Part shown: piece after piece, positions 9,036-20,947 of the stretch | How the letters are laid out: every line of letters begins with the position of its first letter | How positions within the stretch are numbered: position 1 is the stretch's first letter | Virus record (IMG/VR): IMGVR_UViG_3300004369_000126 | Coordinates: 1-26,092 of that record | Reading direction: 5' to 3' (one strand) | Length of the DNA stretch: 26,092 nt | Source of the DNA: a virus | Position numbers and translations under genes: made by a program | The notes under the pieces: generated by a model | What the model was told of the DNA's origin: nothing | Database searches by the model: none | What the model saw: the letters and a program-made list of their open reading frames with translations, nothing else

Positions 9036-9827
9036 ATGGCTATGACAAAGAAAAGTGAAGGTGAGGTCATTGTGTTTGACCGAAACTCAGTACTTGAAGA
9101 ATTCGCTGGGGAGGGCTTGGAAGAGGTAACGTCAGAAGATCTAGCCATTCCCTTTCTGCGAGTGTTGGCGCAGCTTAGTCCGCAAGTGAACAAACGTGAC
9201 GGTGCTTATGTAGAAGGTGCTGAAGCGGGCATGATTTACAATACCGTTGCCAATGCAGCTTACGATGGTGAAAAAGGGATTTTGGTTGTCCCCTGCCACT
9301 ACAATAGGAAGTTTATCGAGTGGCAACCGCGTTCTTCTGGCGGGGGCTTTGTTAGCAGCCATCCTATAGACAGCAACCTGCTTAAAGAAACCACTAAAAG
9401 CGACCGTGGTGAGGATGTGCTTCCCAATGGAAACGTACTCACCAACACAGCCCAGTTTTTCGTATTGCTCGTAGAAGGTGAACAGTTGCAAAAGTGCTGC
9501 ATAACCATGAGCAGCACTCAGCTTAAAAAGGCTAGGCGTTGGGTCGCTCTTCAAGCGGGATTTAAGGGCAAAAGGAGCGACGGTTCTGCCTTCACACAGC
9601 CTAGCTTCAGCCAGATGTACCGGTTGAAAACTGTGGCAGAGTCTAACGATAAAGGCGATTGGTTTGGCTGGGACATTAGCCATGAACGTGCACTAGATCT
9701 CTCTGCAGAAGGGGGTGAGCTTTCCCTACTGTATGAGTGCCGTGACTTTAAAATAGCTGTTGCAGATGGCAGGGTAAAAACCAAGGACAGTAAGGAAAGT
9801 CCTGAGGAAGACGAAGCTCCGTTCTAA
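9036..9827 (+). CDS. Putative single-stranded DNA binding protein
   Basis: 263 residues from the ATG at 9036, chosen because AAAGGG lies about seven bases upstream; an ATG at 9030 would add two residues. The central part has a beta-rich pattern (GILVVPCHYNRKFIEW, AQFFVLLVEGEQLQKCCITM). The C-terminus is a disordered acidic tail ending in Glu-Asp-Glu-Ala-Pro-Phe. An acidic tail finishing in an aromatic residue is the hallmark of phage SSBs such as T7 gp2.5 and recruits replisome partners. The location between helicase and primase genes agrees. Sequence similarity to a named SSB family was not tested, so the call rests on tail, position and fold pattern. Confidence 0.65.
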   Translation: MAMTKKSEGEVIVFDRNSVLEEFAGEGLEEVTSEDLAIPFLRVLAQLSPQVNKRDGAYVEGAEAGMIYNTVANAAYDGEKGILVVPCHYNRKFIEWQPRSSGGGFVSSHPIDSNLLKETTKSDRGEDVLPNGNVLTNTAQFFVLLVEGEQLQKCCITMSSTQLKKARRWVALQAGFKGKRSDGSAFTQPSFSQMYRLKTVAESNDKGDWFGWDISHERALDLSAEGGELSLLYECRDFKIAVADGRVKTKDSKESPEEDEAPF

Positions 9828-11362
9828 TGAGCACATTAGCAGAGCAGTTCTTAGAGCTGTTCTGGGGTAGTGAAATAGCTCACGGCACTTTCATCGTCAA
9901 CAAATCTGCGGGCCTAGGCAAGCAGAAAGGGGATGCAAGTGTCGTGAGGCAGCCCGCTACTCTAGAACTATGGCATAAACATTTAGAGGGCGGAACGGGC
10001 CTAGGAATTATCCCCATTTGCATAGACAATTCATGTCGTTGGGGTGCAATAGATATAGACGATTACACAACGGTCCATAAGACGTTAATTCAAAAGCTGC
10101 GCAAACACTTGGTCCCTGTAATGTTGGGAAGGACTAAATCAGGGGGTGCCCATGTCTGGCTGTTTTGCCAAGAGGGCGTTCCCGCTGCTGATATGCGGCG
10201 AAAACTTACTGAGTTAGCTGCGGTTTTGGGATACGCCCGAAGTGAGATTTTCCCTAAGCAAGAGGAAATCTTGATAGACCGAGGAGATACGGGCAATTTC
10301 CTTAACATGCCCTACCAGGCAAATACTCGAACGGTGCGCTATGCTTTTGATAAGAAAGGTGAATCCTTAACGGCAGAAGAGTTCTTAGGGGAGGCTTTTG
10401 AAAAGAGGCTTTCTACGGATGAGTTCTATGCCTTAGATATCCCTAAGCTCTTTGCTGGTTCAAAAAAGGTAGAGATCCTTGAACAGGGGCCCCCCTGCCT
10501 CCAACACTTATGCGCCCAAGGATTTTCGGAGGGTAGTAGGAATAGTGCTCTCTTTAACCTTGGCGTGTATGCCAGAATGTTTGATACGGAGAACTGGGAA
10601 GTCCTAGTTCAAAAATACAATGTGGAACACTTGGTGCCCCCGCTCGGTCATAACGAGGTGGGAACTGTTATCAAACAGCTTCAGAAAAAAGATTACTTCT
10701 ACCGCTGTGATGACCAGCCCATAAATGCCCACTGTGATAAGGTGCTGTGCAGGGAAAGAAAGTTTGGAGTCGGACCCACCGGCATAAGCGCCGACTTATC
10801 TAGCCTAACCAAAATAGATGGGGACCCTGCGATATGGTTGTTGAATGTGGATGGTCAGCGGTTAGAGCTCACTACGACGGGGTTGACTGTACAGTCTCAG
10901 TTTCAGAAAGAGTGCGTATCACAAATTAATAAGTTCCCTGTGGCCGTGAACCAACGAGCTTGGCAGACTAAAATTCAAGTGTTGTTGGATAACGTGACCA
11001 TTGTAGAAGTGCCTCCTGATGCCACCCTAGAGGGAGAGTTTGAAGACCTGTTGTTTTCCTTCTGCTGTGAAAGGGCGCGTGGCTCTGAAAAAGAAGACTT
11101 GTTGCAGGGTATTTCTGTTTGGATGGACCACCGTGTGAGTTTTCAGGTAAAGGATGTGCGTAAGCATCTTCAGGCAAATGATTTTGCCCACTATTCCTCC
11201 AACAAAATCACGTTGAGATTGCAGGATATGTCTGCAGAAAAAACCTTTTGGAGGGTAAAGGGAAAGGGCCTTCATGTTTGGTCGCTGCCACAGAAGATGT
11301 TTGAAGATGAAGAGCTGCCTCTTGAGTTGCCGCCGTTGGCAGCGGAGCAAGATATACTATGA
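9827..11362 (+). CDS. Archaeo-eukaryotic primase (AEP/PrimPol-like) with C-terminal Cys domain
   Basis: 511 residues; the start overlaps the preceding stop (TAATG). The AEP catalytic core is visible: the metal-binding motif AIDIDDY with Asp76, Asp78 and Asp79, the SGGAHVWLF motif (105-113) with His109, and a third motif region GNFLNMPYQ (156-164). Downstream, PPC (Cys224), Cys294, Cys303 and Cys308 have an order reminiscent of the Fe-S domain of the eukaryotic/archaeal primase large subunit PriL, fused here in one chain; this part is inference. The enzyme would make primers for the phage polymerase. The C-terminal 180 residues are unassigned. It overlaps the UvrD-like gene by four bases. Confidence 0.85.
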   Translation: MSTLAEQFLELFWGSEIAHGTFIVNKSAGLGKQKGDASVVRQPATLELWHKHLEGGTGLGIIPICIDNSCRWGAIDIDDYTTVHKTLIQKLRKHLVPVMLGRTKSGGAHVWLFCQEGVPAADMRRKLTELAAVLGYARSEIFPKQEEILIDRGDTGNFLNMPYQANTRTVRYAFDKKGESLTAEEFLGEAFEKRLSTDEFYALDIPKLFAGSKKVEILEQGPPCLQHLCAQGFSEGSRNSALFNLGVYARMFDTENWEVLVQKYNVEHLVPPLGHNEVGTVIKQLQKKDYFYRCDDQPINAHCDKVLCRERKFGVGPTGISADLSSLTKIDGDPAIWLLNVDGQRLELTTTGLTVQSQFQKECVSQINKFPVAVNQRAWQTKIQVLLDNVTIVEVPPDATLEGEFEDLLFSFCCERARGSEKEDLLQGISVWMDHRVSFQVKDVRKHLQANDFAHYSSNKITLRLQDMSAEKTFWRVKGKGLHVWSLPQKMFEDEELPLELPPLAAEQDIL

Positions 11363-12870
11363 TTCAGATCTTTCTCGGACCCCCCGGAACGGGAAAAACA
11401 GAAACCAGTATTCGCATCGTAGAAAAGTATCTGGAAAAAGGTGTTCCTCCAGACCGCATAGCCTATTTGGCCTTTACTAGAAGAGCGAGCTTAGAAGCAA
11501 AGCACAGAGCGATGGCGCTGTTTAGCCTGAGTGCCGCAGAGCTTCCTTATTTTAGGACGTTGCATAGCTTGGCGTATATGCAGATTGGCATCTTGCGCAA
11601 CCAGATAATGAACCGTAAAAACTTTGAGGAAGTGTCTCAGTGGCTAAAGATCGGTACATTCTTTGGAAACGAGCAAGAGTCTGGGCCGTTTAAAGACTTT
11701 GGGTATGGGGACAAGTACCTAGAGCTTATCAACATAGCTAGAATCACACAGACCCCCTTAAAGCAGATCTATAAAGAAAGCCCTTCTAGGCATCTAGTGA
11801 CTTGGCAAAACTTAGAGTATGTGGCGCGAGGATTGTCCCACTACAAAAAAGTCCATTCGTTATTCGACTACACTGACATGTTGGAGCAGTTTGTTTTAGG
11901 GGAGTACTCCCCCAAGCTTGAGGTGGTCATAATAGATGAGGCCCAAGACCTTTCCGCGCTGCAATGGCAGATGGTACATCAGATCGCTAAAAAAGCAGAG
12001 CATGTGTACATCGCAGGGGATGACGACCAAGCCATTTACCGATGGGCTGGCGCGGACATAGAGCACTTTATTAATTTAGATGGTCAGGTGCACACGTTAA
12101 GTCAGTCATTTAGGATACCTAAATCCCACCATCAACTAAGCCAGCGGTTGATTAAAAGCGTTTTCAACAGAAGAGACAAACAGTTCCTTCCACGAGAAGA
12201 GGAAGGAGTTGTTAGTTGGTATCGGCACAGTGAACAGGTGGATTTGTCTGACGGGGAATGGTTGCTTCTTGCTAGAACGGTGCGAGGAGCCAACCAGCTT
12301 GAAGAAGAGGTACGAAGCCGAGGATATCTTTACGATTATGAGGGAAGTTCTAGCGCGGACAGCAAGGTCATCCAAGCCCTAACCATCTGGGAAAAAATGC
12401 GCGACGGAAATAAGTTTCCTGTCTCCGATATACGCAAAGTGTACAAGCTCATGAGAGCCCACGATCAAGTGGCTTATGGATTCAAGGGGTTGCAAGGCAT
12501 AGAAGAAGACGGGTTGTATGGCATTGAAGATCTTCAAGAGAGTTTTGGCCTATTAGTTGACTCTCCCTGGAAAACGGCCCTTGGTCTGGTGAGTGAGCGC
12601 GACTCAAGGTATATCGATGCTTGTTTGAAAAAAGGAGAAAAGCTGACCGGAAAGCCGCGTGTTAGAATTTCCACTATTCATAGAGCCAAGGGTGCCCAAG
12701 CAGAAAATGTTTGCCTAATGACTGATGTGAGCAAACGATCTAATTCACGTTGGACCTCTTCAGATCAAGATGACGAAGCCCGCGTTTTTTATGTGGGGTT
12801 GACCCGAGCAAAACAGACCTTGCATTTGGTGCACCCCATGCACGGGTCGGGTTACGACCTCCCCGCCTAA
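11359..12870 (+). CDS. UvrD/PcrA-like superfamily 1A DNA helicase
   Basis: 503 residues with a full SF1A motif set: Walker A GPPGTGKT (7-14), motif Ia AYLAFTRRA, Walker B DEAQ (193-196), motif III GDDDQAIYRWAGA (220-232), motif IV SQSFRIP, motif V STIHRAKGAQAENV (438-451), motif VI VFYVGLTRAKQTL (476-488) with Arg483. At 503 residues it is shorter than UvrD or Rep (about 670-720), nearer the size of T4 Dda (439), so it is a minimal 3'-5' or Dda-like helicase. The start overlaps the primase stop (ATGA). With no DnaB-type gene visible, this or the SNF2-type enzyme may supply replication unwinding. Confidence 0.92.
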   Translation: MIQIFLGPPGTGKTETSIRIVEKYLEKGVPPDRIAYLAFTRRASLEAKHRAMALFSLSAAELPYFRTLHSLAYMQIGILRNQIMNRKNFEEVSQWLKIGTFFGNEQESGPFKDFGYGDKYLELINIARITQTPLKQIYKESPSRHLVTWQNLEYVARGLSHYKKVHSLFDYTDMLEQFVLGEYSPKLEVVIIDEAQDLSALQWQMVHQIAKKAEHVYIAGDDDQAIYRWAGADIEHFINLDGQVHTLSQSFRIPKSHHQLSQRLIKSVFNRRDKQFLPREEEGVVSWYRHSEQVDLSDGEWLLLARTVRGANQLEEEVRSRGYLYDYEGSSSADSKVIQALTIWEKMRDGNKFPVSDIRKVYKLMRAHDQVAYGFKGLQGIEEDGLYGIEDLQESFGLLVDSPWKTALGLVSERDSRYIDACLKKGEKLTGKPRVRISTIHRAKGAQAENVCLMTDVSKRSNSRWTSSDQDDEARVFYVGLTRAKQTLHLVHPMHGSGYDLPA

Positions 12871-12951
12871 TTTATCAGAAGAGCAACCCCTGCTACCACC
12901 CCTTGTTCGTAGGCGGTACCTTTAATTGTTACCAACTTAAAGGAGAAATCC

Positions 12952-13227
12952 GTGGCTGTAGAAATAACTTACGCAACTAAGGGTCTGCTGCGTGACATAA
13001 ACCGGCAAGCCATAGAAGGGGGCTATCACCGGGCTTGGGATGCAGACTTTCTAGAAGCCCTTCCAGAAGCCCATTACCCTGTTTATAAAAGCATGGTGCA
13101 CAATGACCACCTTGTACGCGCCGTGTTCATGCTTGACCAATCAGGTACAGAAGCACCGTTAGATATGTCTTACGACGAGTTTAATAACTTACCCCGTTCA
13201 ATGTTTGAAGACGAGGAGGAAGAATAA
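12952..13227 (+). CDS. Small acidic protein of unknown function, GTG start
   Basis: 91 residues starting at GTG. The start is fixed by a strong aaaggag five bases upstream and by the fact that no in-frame ATG occurs before residue 45. The sequence is soluble, His/Tyr/Asp-rich, with an acidic tail of Glu/Asp. No motif was recognised. An 81-base gap with gttcgtaggcggtacc separates it from the helicase gene. It overlaps the DUF932 gene by one base (TAATG), suggesting the two work together. Confidence 0.75.
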   Translation: MAVEITYATKGLLRDINRQAIEGGYHRAWDADFLEALPEAHYPVYKSMVHNDHLVRAVFMLDQSGTEAPLDMSYDEFNNLPRSMFEDEEEE

Positions 13228-14252
13228 TGGCACACCTAGTAGAAACAATGGCCTACGCTGGGGAAGTTCCTTGGCACGGTTTGGGTCGGCAGGTTGAAGC
13301 TGACATGTCCCCAGAAGAAATGCTGGAGGCTGCGGAGTTAAATTGGGCCGTTTCCAAACGGCCCTTGTACACCATTGACAAACCTAACGTGTGGAATATC
13401 GTGGACCCTACGGGTGAAGCTAGTTTCCTGCCCGTTGAAAACCAGCATGTGGTTATGCGAGACTCAGACAACACCGTGCTGAGCGTGGCTGGCAACGATT
13501 ACACCCCCTTCCAAAACCATGACGTTATGGGCTTTTTCAAAAAGTTTACAGAAGCCGGTTCTATGACCATGGAAACAGCGGGTAGCCTTCGTGATGGCAA
13601 AGACATCTGGGGGTTGGCCAAGCTTAAAAGCAAAACGATACTGGTTGGTGATGATGAAATCAATGGGTATTTGTTGCTGAACAATAGCCATGAGGTTGGC
13701 AAGGCTATGACCATGATGTTTACGCCCATCAGGGTTGTTTGCAACAACACTCTCACACTGGCCCTCCAGCAAGGGGGCACTCGTTTTAGAGTGTTGCATG
13801 TGCAAATGTTTGATGAGGAAATTGTGGCCGCTGCTGAAAACGCCCTTGGGTTGAGCAGCAATGCCATGACCGAGTTCTCTGAACAGGCTGAGTTCCTTAG
13901 CACTAAACGAGCTACCGAAAGCCAGTTGGATAACTACGTTGCTGAGTTGTTCCAGCCCAAAACGCTCATAGAGCGCGGTAAATCTACTAACGATAACCTG
14001 CCCGCCCTGCGGGATGAGTTCAAGCGCACTGCCCTTTCAGTCCGGGAAGCCATTGAAACCAGCCCAGGTTCCGGCATGGTTTCGGCCAAGGGTACTTGGT
14101 GGGGAGCCCTTAACGGTGTGACGTTTGTAACGGACCACTTGAAGAAAAGCAGGACTGAAGGCAACAGCCTTCACAGTGCTTGGTTTGGTAGCGGAGCCAA
14201 CGTAAAGCGCCGCGCTTTGGATAAAGCGATTGAGTATGCCAAGGCGGCGTAA
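13227..14252 (+). CDS. DUF932 (phage/plasmid-like) protein
   Basis: 341 residues. The N-terminal PWHGLG (15-20) followed by a helix (SPEEMLEAAELNWAVSKRPL), then VGNDYTPFQNHDVMGFFKKF-like and VRVVCNNTLTLAL-like blocks, are characteristic of the DUF932 / TIGR03299 family found in phages, plasmids and mobile elements. The molecular function is not established. Members are frequently encoded with replication or single-strand annealing genes, and the position here (after primase and helicase) fits that. The gene is full length and ends just before a long hairpin, so it probably closes its transcription unit. Confidence 0.88.
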   Translation: MAHLVETMAYAGEVPWHGLGRQVEADMSPEEMLEAAELNWAVSKRPLYTIDKPNVWNIVDPTGEASFLPVENQHVVMRDSDNTVLSVAGNDYTPFQNHDVMGFFKKFTEAGSMTMETAGSLRDGKDIWGLAKLKSKTILVGDDEINGYLLLNNSHEVGKAMTMMFTPIRVVCNNTLTLALQQGGTRFRVLHVQMFDEEIVAAAENALGLSSNAMTEFSEQAEFLSTKRATESQLDNYVAELFQPKTLIERGKSTNDNLPALRDEFKRTALSVREAIETSPGSGMVSAKGTWWGALNGVTFVTDHLKKSRTEGNSLHSAWFGSGANVKRRALDKAIEYAKAA

Positions 14253-14859: not shown

Positions 14860-15738
14860 ATGAATCCGGAAAACGTAGAAAGTTTTTTCCATTGGATCAA
14901 CGAGCGGCATCGCATTTACCTAAAGCGAAAAGTTGGTCCGGCACCGTTTACAGAAGACGAGATACTGCAACGGTACAAGTTCACCAATCCGTTTCGTGAG
15001 AATGATCGCGTAACTATTTGGATGAGGCAAAACTGGACTAACCCGCACCAGCAAGCGCCTATTTCCCAGCAGATCTATAACATCTGTCTTTTCAGGATGT
15101 TTGGAACGCCGGAGTTTGCAGAAGCCGTTGGGTGGCAAACGGAGTTCAACCCCAGCCTTTTAAAATCAATCGCCCGTGAAAAATTGAACAGAAAAGAAAA
15201 AGTGTTCACGGGTGCTTACATCATCACTAACCAAGGGTTGAAATTGCCCAAGGAAGAAGTGGTGGTGGATCTTTTTCTAGCACCCGTGTGGCGTGACAGT
15301 GAAGATCTAGCCAAGGTCGCTGAGCAGAACAGTTTGAAGACTATGCACAAGGCCCTTGGAAAGTTGAAAGGTTGGGGTGGCGGCGGGTTCATGGCGTATG
15401 AAGCTGTCACTGATATGAACTACACCCCGGTCCTATCTAATGCGGAAGATAAAATGACTTGGGCTAACGCTGGCCCTGGAGCCAAACGTGGGTTGAACCG
15501 AATTCACAATCGCCCGCTCACCAACGGCCGCGCCGATTGGAACCAGGAGATGAAGGGACTCCTTTTGCACAAGGACTACTATGTAGAGATGCCCCAAGGT
15601 GATAACGACAAGATCGATATGCGTTGTATAGAGCATAGCTTGTGTGAGTGGGATAAGTACGAACGGGTACGGCTGGGCCAAGGTCGGCCAAGGAGCAAAG
15701 TATCCTATAACGATGGTGAGTGGTACCCGGTCAACTAG
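14860..15738 (+). CDS. 5-hmdU DNA kinase helical-domain / thymine pyrophosphorylase family protein
   Basis: 292 residues; AAGGA lies seven bases before the ATG. The N-terminal pattern FFHWINERHRIYLKR, then PAPFTEDEILQRYKFTNPFR and DRVTIWMRQNW (8-60), and the C-terminal signature IEHSLCEWDKYERVRLGQGR (from about 259) match what I know of the HMUDK_hel / alpha-glutamyl-putrescinyl-thymine pyrophosphorylase family. These proteins act on 5-hydroxymethyluracil in phage DNA, at the step that activates the hydroxymethyl group for later substitution. There is no P-loop here, so this is the helical domain alone and not the kinase fusion. Its neighbours, a hydroxymethylase-like TS and a glycosyltransferase, strengthen the assignment. 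The exact reaction is unknown. Confidence 0.8.
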   Translation: MNPENVESFFHWINERHRIYLKRKVGPAPFTEDEILQRYKFTNPFRENDRVTIWMRQNWTNPHQQAPISQQIYNICLFRMFGTPEFAEAVGWQTEFNPSLLKSIAREKLNRKEKVFTGAYIITNQGLKLPKEEVVVDLFLAPVWRDSEDLAKVAEQNSLKTMHKALGKLKGWGGGGFMAYEAVTDMNYTPVLSNAEDKMTWANAGPGAKRGLNRIHNRPLTNGRADWNQEMKGLLLHKDYYVEMPQGDNDKIDMRCIEHSLCEWDKYERVRLGQGRPRSKVSYNDGEWYPVN

Positions 15739-15747
15739 GAGTCTATC

Positions 15748-16749
15748 ATGAAAGAAGATACGGTAGTTGTGCACTTGACAAAGTGCGCGGACAAAACGAC
15801 TATTGCTAGCGCCAAGATCGCGAAGTTCATTGCCGAAGAGCACGATTTGCCTTTGGTGGATGGCCCTGGTCAATTCAAGAAACTGTATCACAACATTATT
15901 TATGTCAACAGCATGGGTGCGTTTGCCCACCCTGACTTGCGTAGAGAGTTGGCGGAGCAAGTCCTTTATTGTAATCGGTTGATTTATGTGCAGAACGATT
16001 ACAACGTTCACCCTATCAGCCAAGTACAAAAGGTTGTGCGGGATGACCGGGGTTGGAGCCATGATTTTCCATTCACCAAGGGAGAGATCTTCCTTTGGGG
16101 AACTATTCCTGAGTATATTCACCGGCCAAAGGATCGGTACCTTAACTGGAACCAGCTGACGTACACCCCGATCCCCTGGAAGGACCCCCGTACAGCCCCG
16201 CACAGTGGCTCAATATTTTATTGGGGTGCATGTAGGCCAGGGCGCAAAGACGCCTTTGCACGGCTTCTATTTGGCTGCTATGGCCATGCGAATTTCCCTG
16301 TGGTTATTAGCTGCGCCACAAAGGTGCGAAGCAAGTTTGAAGAAATCCCTAAAGAGTACAAAGACTGGATCTATGATCGGCCCACAGAAGTAAGCTATGT
16401 GAAACCTTTTAAAAGTTTGAAAGATCTTCAAGAGTATAGCTGCACCATCTACATGGAAGATGAAACCAGCAACGACGTGTATACCAGTCCGGCTAACCGC
16501 TTCTATGAAGCGCTCAGTGCAGGCCTATTCATGTTCGTAGACGATATCGCTGCGCACACACTCAAACGGGCCGGGTACGAAGTTCCCCCTGAGTGGGTTA
16601 TTAAAACTCCAGCGGACATTAAAAACGTTGGCCTACCTGTTCCTGTGGCGCAACGTAACAAGCAAGCTGTGCTGTGGAAATACAAGGCAGAGCAGGGCCT
16701 AGCAGAGCTTCGAAAAAACACCGCCCTAGCTATTTCAGGGCTTAACTAA
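15748..16749 (+). CDS. GT-B-type glycosyltransferase, candidate DNA glycosyltransferase
   Basis: 333 residues with AGGAG seven bases before the ATG. The C-terminal half shows GT-B features: an inter-domain motif IFYWGACRPGRKDAF (156-170) resembling the yyG-R-gR segment, a beta strand with NFPVVISC, and SPANRFYEALSAGLFMFVDD (247-266), in which Glu254 and Gly259 match the nucleotide-sugar binding E/G pattern. The N-terminal half has a Rossmann-like strand (VVVHLTK) and IIYVNSMGAF. No signal or membrane segment is present, so a cytoplasmic substrate is expected. Being between a thymine-pyrophosphorylase-family gene and a TS-like hydroxymethylase, it most likely transfers a sugar to hydroxymethylated pyrimidine in phage DNA. 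Sugar donor and acceptor are not readable from sequence. Confidence 0.75.
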   Translation: MKEDTVVVHLTKCADKTTIASAKIAKFIAEEHDLPLVDGPGQFKKLYHNIIYVNSMGAFAHPDLRRELAEQVLYCNRLIYVQNDYNVHPISQVQKVVRDDRGWSHDFPFTKGEIFLWGTIPEYIHRPKDRYLNWNQLTYTPIPWKDPRTAPHSGSIFYWGACRPGRKDAFARLLFGCYGHANFPVVISCATKVRSKFEEIPKEYKDWIYDRPTEVSYVKPFKSLKDLQEYSCTIYMEDETSNDVYTSPANRFYEALSAGLFMFVDDIAAHTLKRAGYEVPPEWVIKTPADIKNVGLPVPVAQRNKQAVLWKYKAEQGLAELRKNTALAISGLN

Positions 16750-16780: not shown

Positions 16781-17899
16781 ATGTTTACTTTCAATGTGCG
16801 AAATGTCAGTGAAGCCTTATACGTTGTGAACCAAAGCCTTAAAGACAACGGCGTTCTGCGTGAGACACGAAACGGTCCCGCGTTAGAATTTCCCGCGCCA
16901 GTGGCTGTTTCCTACAGTCACCCCAAAGAACGGGTGTTGTTCTACCCCCAAAGAGACGCCAACCCCTTCTTCCACTTCATGGAAAGTATGTGGATGTTGG
17001 CTGGGCGCAGAGATGTTGAGTTTGTGCAACAGTTCAACAACCGAATGTCCGTCTACAGCGACAACGGTGTCAACTTCCACGGGGCATACGGGTACCGATG
17101 GAAGAATTGGTTTGAAGACAACCAATTAGACACTATCATCTCACGATTGAAAGAGTACCCAAACGACCGCCGATGTGTCCTAAATATGTGGGATCCAGAT
17201 AGTGATCTCACTTCTGGAAACCACAACGTAGATCTTCCTTGCAACACCCACATCTACTTTCGTGTGGAAGAAACAGGCTCCCTCGTTCCCAACCTATTGC
17301 ACATGACCGTGTGCAATCGTAGCAACGACATGATTTGGGGGGCACTCGGGGCGAACGCAGTGCACATGAGCTTTCTGCAAGAGTACATGGCAGAAATGGT
17401 TGGCGTTGCGGTTGGAACCTACGTTCAGTTCAGCAACAACTTTCACGCCTACCTAGACACATTGCCCAAGTTAGATGGCCTAGTCGCCGACTACGAGCCC
17501 TACCTGCACCTTCCAGAAGAAGGCAAGACCCCCGTTCCGTTGGTGACAGACACGGAAACGTTTGAAGAAGAGCTAGTGTACTTTATGACAGGCCAAGAGC
17601 CCCTGGTGCAAAGAGGCTACAGCAGCCCCAGCAGCAGCCTCAACAGCAGCGACTACCTGAACGATATCTTCCCCTACGTTGCAGAGCCCATGCGGAAAGC
17701 ATGGCGGCTTTGGAAAAGCCCCACAAAAGAAGTTGGAAAAGCAATCCAAGCCGCTGAAAAAATTCAGTCCGCCGATTGGCGGGTGGCCTGCTGCGAGTGG
17801 CTCCAACGAAGGGTCCCCATGCGCCACGAAATGAACGCGCCAGCATTAGACGAAGAATGGGGCTGCTCTAGTGCACAAAAGCCCAAAGAAGGGAAGTAA
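16781..17899 (+). CDS. Thymidylate-synthase-like dUMP hydroxymethylase
   Basis: 372 residues. TS-family landmarks: phosphate-binding NDRRCVLNMWD (about 127-137), the nucleophile Cys154 in DLPCNTHIYF, NRSNDMIWGALGANAVHMSF with Asn192, and NNFHAY with His222 and Tyr224. In this family, Asn at the position of E. coli TS Asn177 favours dUMP, whereas dCMP hydroxymethylases carry Asp. The residue after the nucleophile is Asn rather than the His of true TS, and the WGALGANAVH form is what I associate with phage hydroxymethylases making hydroxymethyl-dUMP from methylene-tetrahydrofolate. A plain TS is the alternative. The C-terminal 130 residues extend beyond the TS core. A weak GTAGAAAG precedes the ATG. 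Confidence 0.82.
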   Translation: MFTFNVRNVSEALYVVNQSLKDNGVLRETRNGPALEFPAPVAVSYSHPKERVLFYPQRDANPFFHFMESMWMLAGRRDVEFVQQFNNRMSVYSDNGVNFHGAYGYRWKNWFEDNQLDTIISRLKEYPNDRRCVLNMWDPDSDLTSGNHNVDLPCNTHIYFRVEETGSLVPNLLHMTVCNRSNDMIWGALGANAVHMSFLQEYMAEMVGVAVGTYVQFSNNFHAYLDTLPKLDGLVADYEPYLHLPEEGKTPVPLVTDTETFEEELVYFMTGQEPLVQRGYSSPSSSLNSSDYLNDIFPYVAEPMRKAWRLWKSPTKEVGKAIQAAEKIQSADWRVACCEWLQRRVPMRHEMNAPALDEEWGCSSAQKPKEGK

Positions 17900-17902
17900 C
17901 TC

Positions 17903-18277
17903 ATGCACAGTGAAATCATAGAAGTTGTTAAAGGGCTCACTGAAAAAGATTGGAAAGCACTGCAGAAGTCCGAAAAAAGCTACGGCGATAGCTGGCGTAA
18001 AAGAGGGGGCGTGGGTGCCTTCATGATGCTGGCCCGCAAGTGGGACAGGATAAATGTGCAAGTGGAAAAATCTTCCTACAATGTGTTCGACGCCGTTGAA
18101 GAAGACGGGCGGGAAGAAGGGATACTAGACGATATCAAAGATCTTCGGCGGTACCTTCTGTTGGTAGAAGCATGGTGCCACATGCAGACAATAGACTACG
18201 ACATAGAGCAAGAGCCCTTAGATCCCGAAGAGGACACTCAGGCCGACATCCCCCGCGCCATCGGCGTATACGATTGA
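17903..18277 (+). CDS. Nmad1/DUF1599-like protein
   Basis: 124 residues, three bases after the TS-like stop. The stretch KSYGDSWRKRGGVGAFMMLARKWDRI (residues about 27-52), followed by an acidic helix ILDDIKDLRRYLLLVEAW, matches the layout of the nucleotide modification associated domain 1 (DUF1599): a YG-SW motif, a Lys-x-x-Arg-Ile helix and a later Asp-Asp-helix-Tyr. The domain is often found beside phage base-modification genes and its helical build recalls nucleotide-binding MazG-like folds, though catalytic activity is unproven. The location right after the hydroxymethylase fits a nucleotide-pool role. It overlaps the next start by one base (TGATG). Confidence 0.7.
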   Translation: MHSEIIEVVKGLTEKDWKALQKSEKSYGDSWRKRGGVGAFMMLARKWDRINVQVEKSSYNVFDAVEEDGREEGILDDIKDLRRYLLLVEAWCHMQTIDYDIEQEPLDPEEDTQADIPRAIGVYD

Positions 18278-18429
18278 TGCAAGAAGAGGGGCTCCCTAAA
18301 AGCAACATGGAAAAGCCGTTGCTGGCAACATGCAACTGCAGCGCAGAACACCGAACACTTGTTGTTAGGACGCTAAAAAACCGATGGCCTAAATGCTCTT
18401 GTGGCCTGTTCATGAAAGTTGAAAAGTAA
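18277..18429 (+). CDS. 50 aa CxC/CxC zinc-finger-like mini-protein
   Basis: 50 residues, start coupled to the upstream stop and stop coupled to the polymerase start (TAATG). Two CxC pairs, Cys19/Cys21 and Cys40/Cys42, are separated by 18 residues, and the rest is basic, consistent with a single zinc-bound nucleic-acid-binding finger. No family recognised. Being welded between the modification cassette and the polymerase gene suggests a replication accessory role, which is inference. Confidence 0.55.
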   Translation: MQEEGLPKSNMEKPLLATCNCSAEHRTLVVRTLKNRWPKCSCGLFMKVEK

Positions 18430-20363
18430 TGGCCAAAGGCCCCCGGCAAATGACTTTCTTCGCGCCTAAAGGCGAGTGGGTGGCACCAACAGAATTCCCG
18501 GACCTATCAGCGTATAGCACCGTAGCCGTGGATCTTGAAACAAGAGACCCGCACCTCCGTGAACGCGGCAGCGGGTGGCCCCGAAAAGACGGATACATTA
18601 TCGGTGTCGCAGTAGCTGTTGAAAACGAAGCATGGTACTTTCCCATCAGGCATGAAATTGGCCCCAACCTTGATGTTAAACGAACCTTGGGTTGGCTGGC
18701 CGACTTGCTTAAAGACCCCACCCGGCAGGTAGTATTTCACAATGCGCAGTACGATGTAGGCTGGCTCCTCGCCGAGGGGGTAACTATCCACTCGGCAATA
18801 CGCGACACCATGGTCGTGGCCCCTTTGTTGGATGAAAATCGGTTTAGCTATTCGCTTAATAATTTAAGTAGAGACTACCTTGCAGACATTAAGTCGGAAA
18901 AGGGCTTACGAGAAGCAGCCGCTGAGTTTGGTGTGGATGCCAAGAGCGAAATGTACAAGCTTCCGGCCAGCTTCGTGGGGGCATACGCCGAGCAAGACGC
19001 AGCACTTACACTACGGTTGTGGAACCACTTTCAAGTGCTAATTGTTAAAGAAGACATCGCCGATATCCTAGCACTTGAACACAAAGTCCTCGCTACTGTC
19101 ATTCCCATGCGGCATCGTGGGGTGCCCATTGATATAGATAGGGCCGCAGAACTAAAAGGGTACTTCCACAAAAAAGAAATAGAATTCCTATCCGAAATAA
19201 AGCGCGAAACAGGCAAAGACGTTGAAATATGGGCTGCTGCGAGCATTGCCAAAGCCTTTGACGCGATTGATCTGCCCTACCCCCGCACCGAAAAGACGGG
19301 TGTTCCAAGCTTCACGAAGTTTTGGCTAAAAAACCACGAACACAAAGTCCCCAAAATGATTGTAGAAGCACGAGAGCTTAACAAAGCCCGAACGACCTTC
19401 GTAGACACCATTCTCAAACACAACCACAACGGTAGAATTCACGCTGAGCTGAACCAGCTACGAAGCGACGATGCAGGAACAGTCACCGGGCGTTTTAGCT
19501 ACAGCAATCCTAATCTGCAACAAATGCCTGCACGGAACGCTGAAATTGGCCCGTTGATTCGCAGCCTGTTTGTACCCGAAAAAGACACCGTGTGGGGCAC
19601 CTTTGATTACTCCAGCCAAGAGCCCCGCTTGGTCGTTCACTACAGTAGCCTTCTAGGGTTCAACGGAGCCACGGACTTTGCGGATGAGTACCATAAGGAT
19701 GCAACAACAGATTTCCACCAAATGGCGGCGGATATCGTGGGCCTTCCTCGCAAACAGGCTAAGGATATCAACCTTGGATTGTTCTATGGAATGGGCACCA
19801 AGAAGCTGGCGACGAGCTTGGGGCTAGAAGTAGACGAAGGTAAAAAACTTTTTGAAGAGTACCACGCAAAAGTTCCGTTTGTGAGGCAGTTGAGCGAATA
19901 CGCCATGAAACGCGCATCCACCAAAGGGGTGATCCGCACCCTGCTAGGTAGACGGTGCCGCTTTGATAAGTGGGAGCCCAGTCGGTACGGCCTATACAAG
20001 TCTCTAAGCTACCAGGAGGCCTATGACGAGCACGGCCCTAGCATTCGCCGCGCCTTTACCTACAAGGCCCTCAACAAGCTTATACAAGGCAGCGCGGCAG
20101 ACCAGACCAAAGCAGCCATGGTCGCTTTGCACGAAAACGGCTATTTGCCCATGATACAAGTTCATGACGAGCTTGACTTTTCGGTGTCTTCTGAAAAAGA
20201 GGCCAAGGAGATCAAAGAAATCATGGAAACCTGTGTAGAGCTACGGGTACCCAGTCTTGTAGATTCTGAATTCGGTAAGAACTGGGGGGAAGCAAAACAA
20301 ACCTTTGGAGATAAACCATGGACACGAGGGATAGCGGACAGCCACTCGGAGATGGAAACGTAG
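18429..20363 (+). CDS. polA: Family A DNA polymerase with 3'-5' exonuclease domain
   Basis: 644 residues. Exonuclease motifs: DLET (Asp35, Glu37), HNAQYD (Asp109) and YAEQD (Tyr186, Asp190), so proofreading looks intact. Polymerase motifs: TVTGRFSYSNPNLQQMPAR, motif A DYSSQEPR (Asp393), motif B RKQAKDINLGLFYG (441-454), motif C VHDE (Asp580, Glu581). The residue equivalent to E. coli Pol I Phe762 is Leu449. There is no 5'-3' nuclease domain, as usual in phage enzymes. It is the replicative polymerase of the phage and, with the upstream cassette, the enzyme that would have to accept a modified dUTP analogue. It overlaps the HD gene by 46 bases. Confidence 0.95.
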   Translation: MAKGPRQMTFFAPKGEWVAPTEFPDLSAYSTVAVDLETRDPHLRERGSGWPRKDGYIIGVAVAVENEAWYFPIRHEIGPNLDVKRTLGWLADLLKDPTRQVVFHNAQYDVGWLLAEGVTIHSAIRDTMVVAPLLDENRFSYSLNNLSRDYLADIKSEKGLREAAAEFGVDAKSEMYKLPASFVGAYAEQDAALTLRLWNHFQVLIVKEDIADILALEHKVLATVIPMRHRGVPIDIDRAAELKGYFHKKEIEFLSEIKRETGKDVEIWAAASIAKAFDAIDLPYPRTEKTGVPSFTKFWLKNHEHKVPKMIVEARELNKARTTFVDTILKHNHNGRIHAELNQLRSDDAGTVTGRFSYSNPNLQQMPARNAEIGPLIRSLFVPEKDTVWGTFDYSSQEPRLVVHYSSLLGFNGATDFADEYHKDATTDFHQMAADIVGLPRKQAKDINLGLFYGMGTKKLATSLGLEVDEGKKLFEEYHAKVPFVRQLSEYAMKRASTKGVIRTLLGRRCRFDKWEPSRYGLYKSLSYQEAYDEHGPSIRRAFTYKALNKLIQGSAADQTKAAMVALHENGYLPMIQVHDELDFSVSSEKEAKEIKEIMETCVELRVPSLVDSEFGKNWGEAKQTFGDKPWTRGIADSHSEMET

Positions 20364-20947
20364 AAGAGCTGATCGCTTGTATGGATCAACGGCTAGCCAC
20401 TGGAGACATTCTTCGGTATCACACCACACCGCAAGTCGGACAAGGACAAACCGTTGGACAGCACACTTGGCGCGGATTAGTGCTATTGGATTTGATATGG
20501 CCTTCTGCTCCCATGCAGATATGGCGATATTTTTTGTACCACGATGCGGCAGAGCTGTTCACGGGGGACATCCCTAGTCCCATAAAATGGTCCAACAAAG
20601 AGCTCCAAAAAATAATTGTTGGGATAGAAGAAGATATCTGCGATAAAATGGGGCTCCCTTCAAAAACGGACCTGCCTGTAGATGAGCAAATCCTTGTAGA
20701 AATGATTGATGTGCTAGAGTTGATGTTTCATTGCAACCCGCTTAGGAAAACGATAACTAAGGCTGAGGAGATATATCAGGTGGGCTACGAAAAGGTTTGG
20801 AAGCTGAGTGTACAGCTGGAAATGATCCTACGAAAATCCCAAAAGAGTATGGCCCACCAAGAAAGAACCAGGAGTTTATCTATGATAAGAAAACTTTTGG
20901 ACGAAATTGGGCCATTTCCAGTGCGATATCCGCCGCTATTTGAATGA
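20318..20947 (+). CDS. YfbR-like HD-domain 5'-nucleotidase
   Basis: 209 residues; GGAG eight bases upstream supports the ATG inside the polymerase gene. HD-superfamily metal ligands are visible: His49 in VGQHTWR, His75-Asp76 with Glu79 in YHDAAELFTGDIPSPIKW, and Asp131 in MIDVLEL. The HDAAE-TGD-P-P-K block matches YfbR, which removes the 5'-phosphate from dNMPs such as dTMP and dUMP. A phage with modified thymine could use it to lower the normal dTMP pool, as other hmdU phages do with dTMP-degrading enzymes. That link is inference; general nucleotide salvage is the alternative. Confidence 0.85.
   Translation: MDTRDSGQPLGDGNVEELIACMDQRLATGDILRYHTTPQVGQGQTVGQHTWRGLVLLDLIWPSAPMQIWRYFLYHDAAELFTGDIPSPIKWSNKELQKIIVGIEEDICDKMGLPSKTDLPVDEQILVEMIDVLELMFHCNPLRKTITKAEEIYQVGYEKVWKLSVQLEMILRKSQKSMAHQERTRSLSMIRKLLDEIGPFPVRYPPLFE

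Follow-up and report, generated by a model that had tools for sequence, protein, structure and literature searches.

A viral contig in IMG/VR (26,092 bp, analysed over its full length and called the window here) carries a glycosyltransferase (GT) gene between a gene for a PF18723 protein and a gene for a thymidylate-synthase (TS)-like enzyme (Table 1), and the question raised by this locus is which molecule receives the sugar. The original prediction was that the acceptor is hydroxymethyluracil in DNA, in analogy to the glucosylation of T4 DNA. According to our analysis, the window GT is probably a T4-BGT-like DNA glycosyltransferase acting on 5-hydroxymethyl-dU (5-hmdU), in what would be the phage counterpart of base J. 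Direct support comes from homology to BGT, from correspondences of single residues, and from the composition and recurrence of the operon.

Table 1. Genes and residues of the modification locus, in window positions
Feature	Position	Strand	Remarks
PF18723 (HMUDK_hel) protein, 'HEL', aGPT-PPlase1 type	14860..15738	+	PF18723, E 1e-46
BGT-like GT-B glycosyltransferase (predicted)	15748..16749	+	333 aa, ATG start; AlphaFold2 model, BGT profile match
Asp84 codon	15997..15999	+	Aligned by hhalign with BGT Asp100, the catalytic base of BGT; Q-N-D-Y-N motif
YWGACRPGRKDAF, putative donor-site loop	16219..16257	+	Residues 158-170; Arg163 aligned with BGT Arg191
SPANRFYEALSAG	16486..16524	+	Residues 247-259; Arg251 and Glu254 aligned with BGT Arg269 and Glu272
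TS-like enzyme, predicted dUMP hydroxymethylase	16781..17899	+	PF00303, E 2e-20; phrog_5131, 3e-107
Small conserved protein, co-travels with TS/HEL/polA	17903..18277	+	No Pfam match
Family A DNA polymerase, HTVC023P type	18429..20363	+	PF00476; 51-54% identical to HTVC023P-type phages
HD-domain 5'-deoxynucleotidase, YfbR-like	20318..20947	+	PF12917, E 7e-9; as in M6 operon

The GT gene is real, since its frame is kept in relatives of 82-88% identity on other contigs and its dN/dS of 0.14-0.17 corresponds to purifying selection. The open reading frame and both of the motifs claimed for it were located, and these motifs are not a chance likeness because their key residues are nearly invariant across a family of 27 members. 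Hydrophobicity reaches a 19-residue mean of only 1.2 (Kyte-Doolittle, residues 173-191), hence there is no evident membrane or signal segment, as had been claimed. The tight spacing was also confirmed, with gaps of 9 bp to the upstream gene and 31 bp to the downstream gene.

Searches with the window GT as a single sequence gave no match in Pfam, PHROGs, NCBIfam or PDB sequences, a scan of GTDB contigs with one peptide pattern gave no relatives, and the family profile found nothing useful among PDB sequences. Two rounds of relatives were collected into an alignment of 27 members, which was the input to AlphaFold2 and led to a confident model (pLDDT 87.6, pTM 0.88). In a Foldseek search of the PDB, T4 BGT ranked first for this model (E 2e-8). 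VIA-align also put T4 BGT first (Z 20.8, rmsd 3.6 A, 298 residues); the top four matches were all BGT entries (Z 20.2-20.8, 3.5-3.6 A, 291-298 residues), followed by five T4 AGT entries (Z 16.3-16.6) and the remaining GT-B enzymes from 15.8 downwards. BGT leads by about 5 Z units, so that the likeness of the window GT to it goes beyond what all GT-B enzymes share; T4 AGT leads the other GT-B enzymes by no more than 1 Z unit, which carries little weight. This was the structural comparison set beforehand as a check on the prediction, and T4 BGT came first and T4 AGT second by Z, ahead of lipopolysaccharide (LPS) and protein glycosyltransferases.

Profile comparison, which does not depend on the model, led to the same enzyme. 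With hhalign the GT family matched a profile of seven BGTs over the full length (E 3e-13, probability 98%). The AGT and GT4 controls were single sequences, and the like-for-like contrast is therefore between single T4 BGT (6e-8) and values of about 0.2: 0.19 for T4 AGT, by which no match to the T4 AGT family (GT72) is seen, and 0.25 for a GT4. Four BGT residues map onto the window GT (Table 1), namely Asp100, the catalytic base in BGT structures, and Arg191, Arg269 and Glu272, which lie in the donor site there. The counterparts of the latter three are invariant in the family alignment. Of the 23 rows that cover position 84, 13 have D and 10 have E; D is present in every covering member with a hydroxymethylation partner, and the rows with E, together with one D row (the first copy in L017), are without such a partner.

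BGT Glu22, which is invariant in BGTs, has no acidic counterpart in the hydroxymethylation-linked rows, where the N-terminal alignment is gapped, and PF09198 (the BGT domain) matches neither the window GT nor any of the 27 members. For these reasons we call the enzyme BGT-like and not a member of GT63. PF20691 (TAGT) likewise matched neither the window GT nor the family. The family tree has long branches and local support only. On the evidence of profiles and the predicted structure, we place the window GT as a distant homologue of T4 BGT with a GT-B fold, the fold that had been claimed from its motifs. The original prediction that it is not obviously of a T4 family holds for BLAST and Pfam, at which level the relation is invisible, and fails for profiles and structure; its analogy to T4 glucosylation is supported.

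The upstream gene had been read as a member of an hmdU family. PF18723 (HMUDK_hel) is indeed found there, but its product is a helical protein and not the P-loop 5-hmdU kinase, PF18748. Its AlphaFold2 model (pLDDT 85.6, mostly helical) matches the 5-PmdU glycinyltransferase PUGT of phage PaMx11 (Z 11.5), base-flipping DNA glycosylases (Z 8-10) and, at a Z of about 10, enzymes of queuine salvage as well. Foldseek E-values for this model are weak (0.09), and the predicted DNA-glycosylase-like helical fold is suggestive only. PF18723 as the 5-hmdU kinase itself was considered and dropped; the PF18748 kinase in phage M6 is gp54. This gp54 (L052:4186-4749) and the gene at L036:3807-4370 are annotated as 'terminase small subunit' and match PF18748 (5-hmdU DNA kinase), so this label is a misannotation in YuA-like phages.

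Downstream, where a hydroxymethylase had been claimed, lies a TS-like gene with a PF00303 match, whose product shares 43% identity with its phage M6 counterpart at 96% coverage. The catalytic Cys is kept in alignments with ThyA, T4 gp42, SPO1 gp29 and MP1412. The residue corresponding to E. coli position 177 is Asn in the window enzyme, in E. coli ThyA and in SPO1 gp29, and Asp in T4 gp42. Because of Asn at this base-recognition position, the enzyme should use dUMP. The context of this position is GALGAN, versus GTFGAN in SPO1 gp29, which is annotated as dUMP hydroxymethylase. From its M6 and SPO1 relatives, we infer that the window enzyme hydroxymethylates rather than methylates. With a BGT-like transferase between PF18723 and a predicted dUMP-type hydroxymethylase, both a DNA substrate and the hmdU acceptor appear likely, as originally predicted.

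In HTVC023P-type phages the helicase gene lies directly before polA or a few small genes away, and in the window a block of DUF932, PF18723, GT and TS sits between the two. The small protein after TS has a short relative in L016 that belongs to PF07659 (nucleotide modification associated domain 1), and the PF12917 domain of the HD nucleotidase is also present in MP1412 gp17. Elsewhere in the window, positions 9827-11362 encode a primase matching PF22548 (TOTE conflict system archaeo-eukaryotic primase domain), and the contig starts within a Met-Gly-Gly repeat run (MGGMGGMGG, positions 2-80) that belongs to a large protein with no match in Pfam.

Relatives of the window GT were grouped at 50% identity into 24 clusters. 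PF18723 and a TS-like gene occur together within about 8 kb of the GT in 8 of these, a TS-like gene alone in two, and an adjacent TET/JBP oxygenase in another two; L014 and L015 have TET/JBP on the same contig, outside the flanks. In two divergent phages the GT stands beside a Tet_JBP-type oxygenase and a ParB-like protein (L020:7059-8948, L053:3148-4993). The set of PF18723, GT and TS is found in at least five gene orders: PF18723-GT-TS in the window, PF18723-GT4-GT-TS in L013, GT-PF18723-TS in L019, L027 and L054, GT-PF18723-kinase-TS in EP_H11, and TS-PF18723-TAGT-GT in L058. At the same sensitivity PF18723 is rare (242 of 50,697 phage records), thus its adjacency to the GT is not due to chance. 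Eleven clusters, L014/L015 among them, have no partner within the flanks examined, and these count against the 5-hmdU reading; most of them fall in a distant clade that has Glu, not Asp, at position 84. Most of L059-L112 form this large clade, with no hydroxymethylation partner within 8 kb and Glu at the catalytic position in the sampled members.

The TS-like partner is of the dCMP type (Asp) in L016, L055, L056 and L058, which means that the GT family is not tied to uracil. An Asp-type enzyme occurs with PF18723 at L055:1228-3151, L056:2236-4150 and L058:5299-6997, and PF18723 is therefore not confined to thymidine pathways. The GT family overall seems to serve hydroxymethylated pyrimidines, the uracil assignment being specific to the window type. 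Two cultured E. coli phages, EP_H11 (L002, OP688485.1) and IME392 (L003, MH719082.1), carry genes for a PIG-L deacetylase, the GT, PF18723, a P-loop kinase-like protein and a TS-like enzyme, mostly annotated as hypothetical; both phages are likely to have modified DNA.

Among the genes of the GT operons that may tailor sugars are those for FkbM methyltransferases, PIG-L deacetylase, TAGT glycosyltransferases, the UDP-glucose dehydrogenase family, an epimerase and the ADP-heptose pathway. In L019, homologues of HldA, GmhA, HldC and GmhB lie directly 3' of GT-PF18723-TS (11245-13604) and would make up the whole route to ADP-glycero-manno-heptose; these assignments are the top hits, whose scores fall short of the equivalog cut-offs, and they suggest a heptose donor. 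A search of IMG/VR yielded no close relative of either the L019 or the L013 transferase, so the heptose link comes from one contig. In L056 (4325-9277) a UDP-glucose/GDP-mannose dehydrogenase, an epimerase, an FkbM methyltransferase, a TAGT and another methyltransferase surround the GT; the sugar genes are placed between PF18723 and a ribonucleotide-reductase-like gene, with TAGT, FkbM, dehydrogenase and epimerase between PF18723 and the GT. TAGT-like genes are also found in the operons of L055 and L058. Among window-type relatives, an FkbM-family methyltransferase gene follows directly after TS in L006 (4519-5142) and L010 (10088-10744) and is absent from the window, a case of variable sugar tailoring. 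The nucleotidyltransferase PF00483 was found in none of the GT-carrying records and the epimerase PF01370 only in L016 and L028, hence both give little information on the donor. The 26-kb window showed no sugar-nucleotide gene, which makes a nucleotide-sugar supplied by the host, for example UDP-glucose, its likeliest donor.

In accordance with the 5-hmdU reading, the downstream TS-like enzyme would first make hydroxymethyl-dUMP, which the phage polymerase would then incorporate as 5-hmdU. In finished DNA, the GT would move a sugar from a nucleotide-sugar onto the 5-hydroxymethyl oxygen of 5-hmdU, with Asp84 as the putative general base and a presumably inverting mechanism. The PF18723 protein probably recognises or presents the modified base, for which its predicted fold suggests base flipping. 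The product would be glycosylated 5-hmdU, a base-J-like nucleotide, which may shield the genome from restriction. A wider proposal, which we put forward only tentatively and hold to be less probable than its opposite, is that thymidine hypermodification has a second branch in phages, where an exchangeable sugar module around a BGT-like transferase replaces the kinase and amino-acid module and leads to base-J-like glycosyl-5-hmdU; some lineages would use sugars other than glucose, and L019 would carry heptosyl-5-hmdU DNA.

Several observations count against 5-hmdU glycosylation and lead to other acceptors. Besides the missing Glu22 counterpart and PF09198 match, some relatives have a dCMP-type hydroxymethylase, and an acceptor in the form of hydroxymethylcytosine (or 5-hydroxycytosine), with the TS-like gene encoding a dCMP enzyme, would fit the Asp-type partners of L016 and, with PF18723, of L055, L056 and L058, as well as the relatives beside TET/JBP oxygenases; the TS superfamily also includes 5-hydroxy-dCMP synthases (PMC13390438). 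For the window we consider this improbable, because its own TS-like enzyme has Asn in a context like that of SPO1 gp29 and is close to the M6 enzyme. In addition, plain glycosylation would have no need of PF18723 if this protein worked only with the kinase. In another alternative the acceptor is a phosphate on 5-hmdU, or an earlier sugar, so that a phosphoglycosyl or disaccharide base results, and PF18723 acts upstream of the GT step. The M6 pathway, to which PF18723 belongs, runs via phosphorylated 5-hmdU (PMC6449724), and in SP-15 DNA a glucuronolactone is attached through phosphate (PMC5977210). PF18723 and the GT occur together in 8 of the 24 clusters, and a P-loop kinase-like gene stands beside both in EP_H11 (an AAA_28 protein, between PF18723 and TS) and in L054 (before the GT). 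However, the GT-carrying records searched showed no PF18748 kinase, the only P-loop protein of the window is a UvrD-type helicase, and a BGT-type fold with a catalytic Asp fits a hydroxyl acceptor, so we give this alternative a similarly small chance.

The least credible alternative is that the enzyme glycosylates a surface structure (LPS, capsule) or proteins and stands beside nucleotide genes by accident. About ten clusters of distant relatives without a DNA-modification partner, and weak below-threshold matches to PF13524 in four relatives, would be in line with it. On the other hand, structure and profile place BGT above LPS enzymes, the gene stays with PF18723, TS or TET across unrelated phages, and the protein has no membrane segment.

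Sugar on hydroxymethyl-uracil was unreported in phages as of a 2019 paper, and within the part of the literature covered we found no later report of phage glycosylated 5-hmdU. Likewise, no description of the BGT homology, the operon recurrence or the sugar cassettes was found within the literature reached. If glycosylation of 5-hmdU is right, this gap would be closed by a bacterial-virus counterpart of base J, phages would be shown to exchange amino-acid and sugar decorations on a single precursor, and enzymes for tagging 5-hmdU in DNA would be at hand. The claim of a sugar on 5-hmdU is directly testable, because the same set of genes is present in two isolated phages, EP_H11 and IME392.

Among known systems, HTVC023P-type phages share a related polymerase and replication genes with the window, and published text on them mentions the same combination of functions; none of their records in the phage collection matched the window GT. 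TAGTs (PF20691, TET-associated phage glycosyltransferases) are also DNA-modification glycosyltransferases, with TAGT-like genes in three GT operons, whereas the window GT itself has no TAGT match. The 5-NedU operon of the Pseudomonas phages M6 and MP1412 likewise has PF18723 followed by a TS-like hydroxymethylase, and the genes for PolA and an HD nucleotidase lie downstream of these. Its order is ADDT, PLP, radical SAM, PF18748 kinase, PF18723, Nmad5, TS, HD, PolA, and that of the window is PF18723, GT, TS, PolA, HD; thus the GT occupies the place of Nmad5, and the HD gene lies after polA instead of before it. Neither the window nor the other GT-carrying loci and records examined, where M6 pathway proteins were sought by phmmer, yielded the PF18748 kinase, PF18724 amino acid:DNA transferase, PLP, radical SAM or Nmad5 genes. 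PF18748 was found in 0 of 17 GT-carrying records, many of which are fragments, and PF18724 gave one below-cut-off match overlapping PF18723; the GT relatives of 66 kb and 111-116 kb are also without both. For the window, which is a fragment, this absence is provisional.

T4 b-gt (GT63, PF09198) also adjoins a gene for a TS-superfamily hydroxymethylase (gp42 in T4) near a polymerase gene, and BGT shares with the window GT the GT-B fold, the full-length profile match and the positions of Asp100, Arg191, Arg269 and Glu272. The window GT differs from it in being about 10-15% identical, in having no PF09198 match and no Glu22 counterpart, in its PF18723 companion, and in its predicted acceptor, 5-hmdU versus 5-hmC in T4. 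With base J of kinetoplastids (beta-D-glucosyl-hydroxymethyluracil, made by JBP and JGT), the predicted product of the window, an O-glycosylated 5-hmdU, would be shared. The difference lies in the origin of hmdU, which is predicted to be made before replication by a TS-like enzyme in the window and is formed by the JBP oxygenase in base J.
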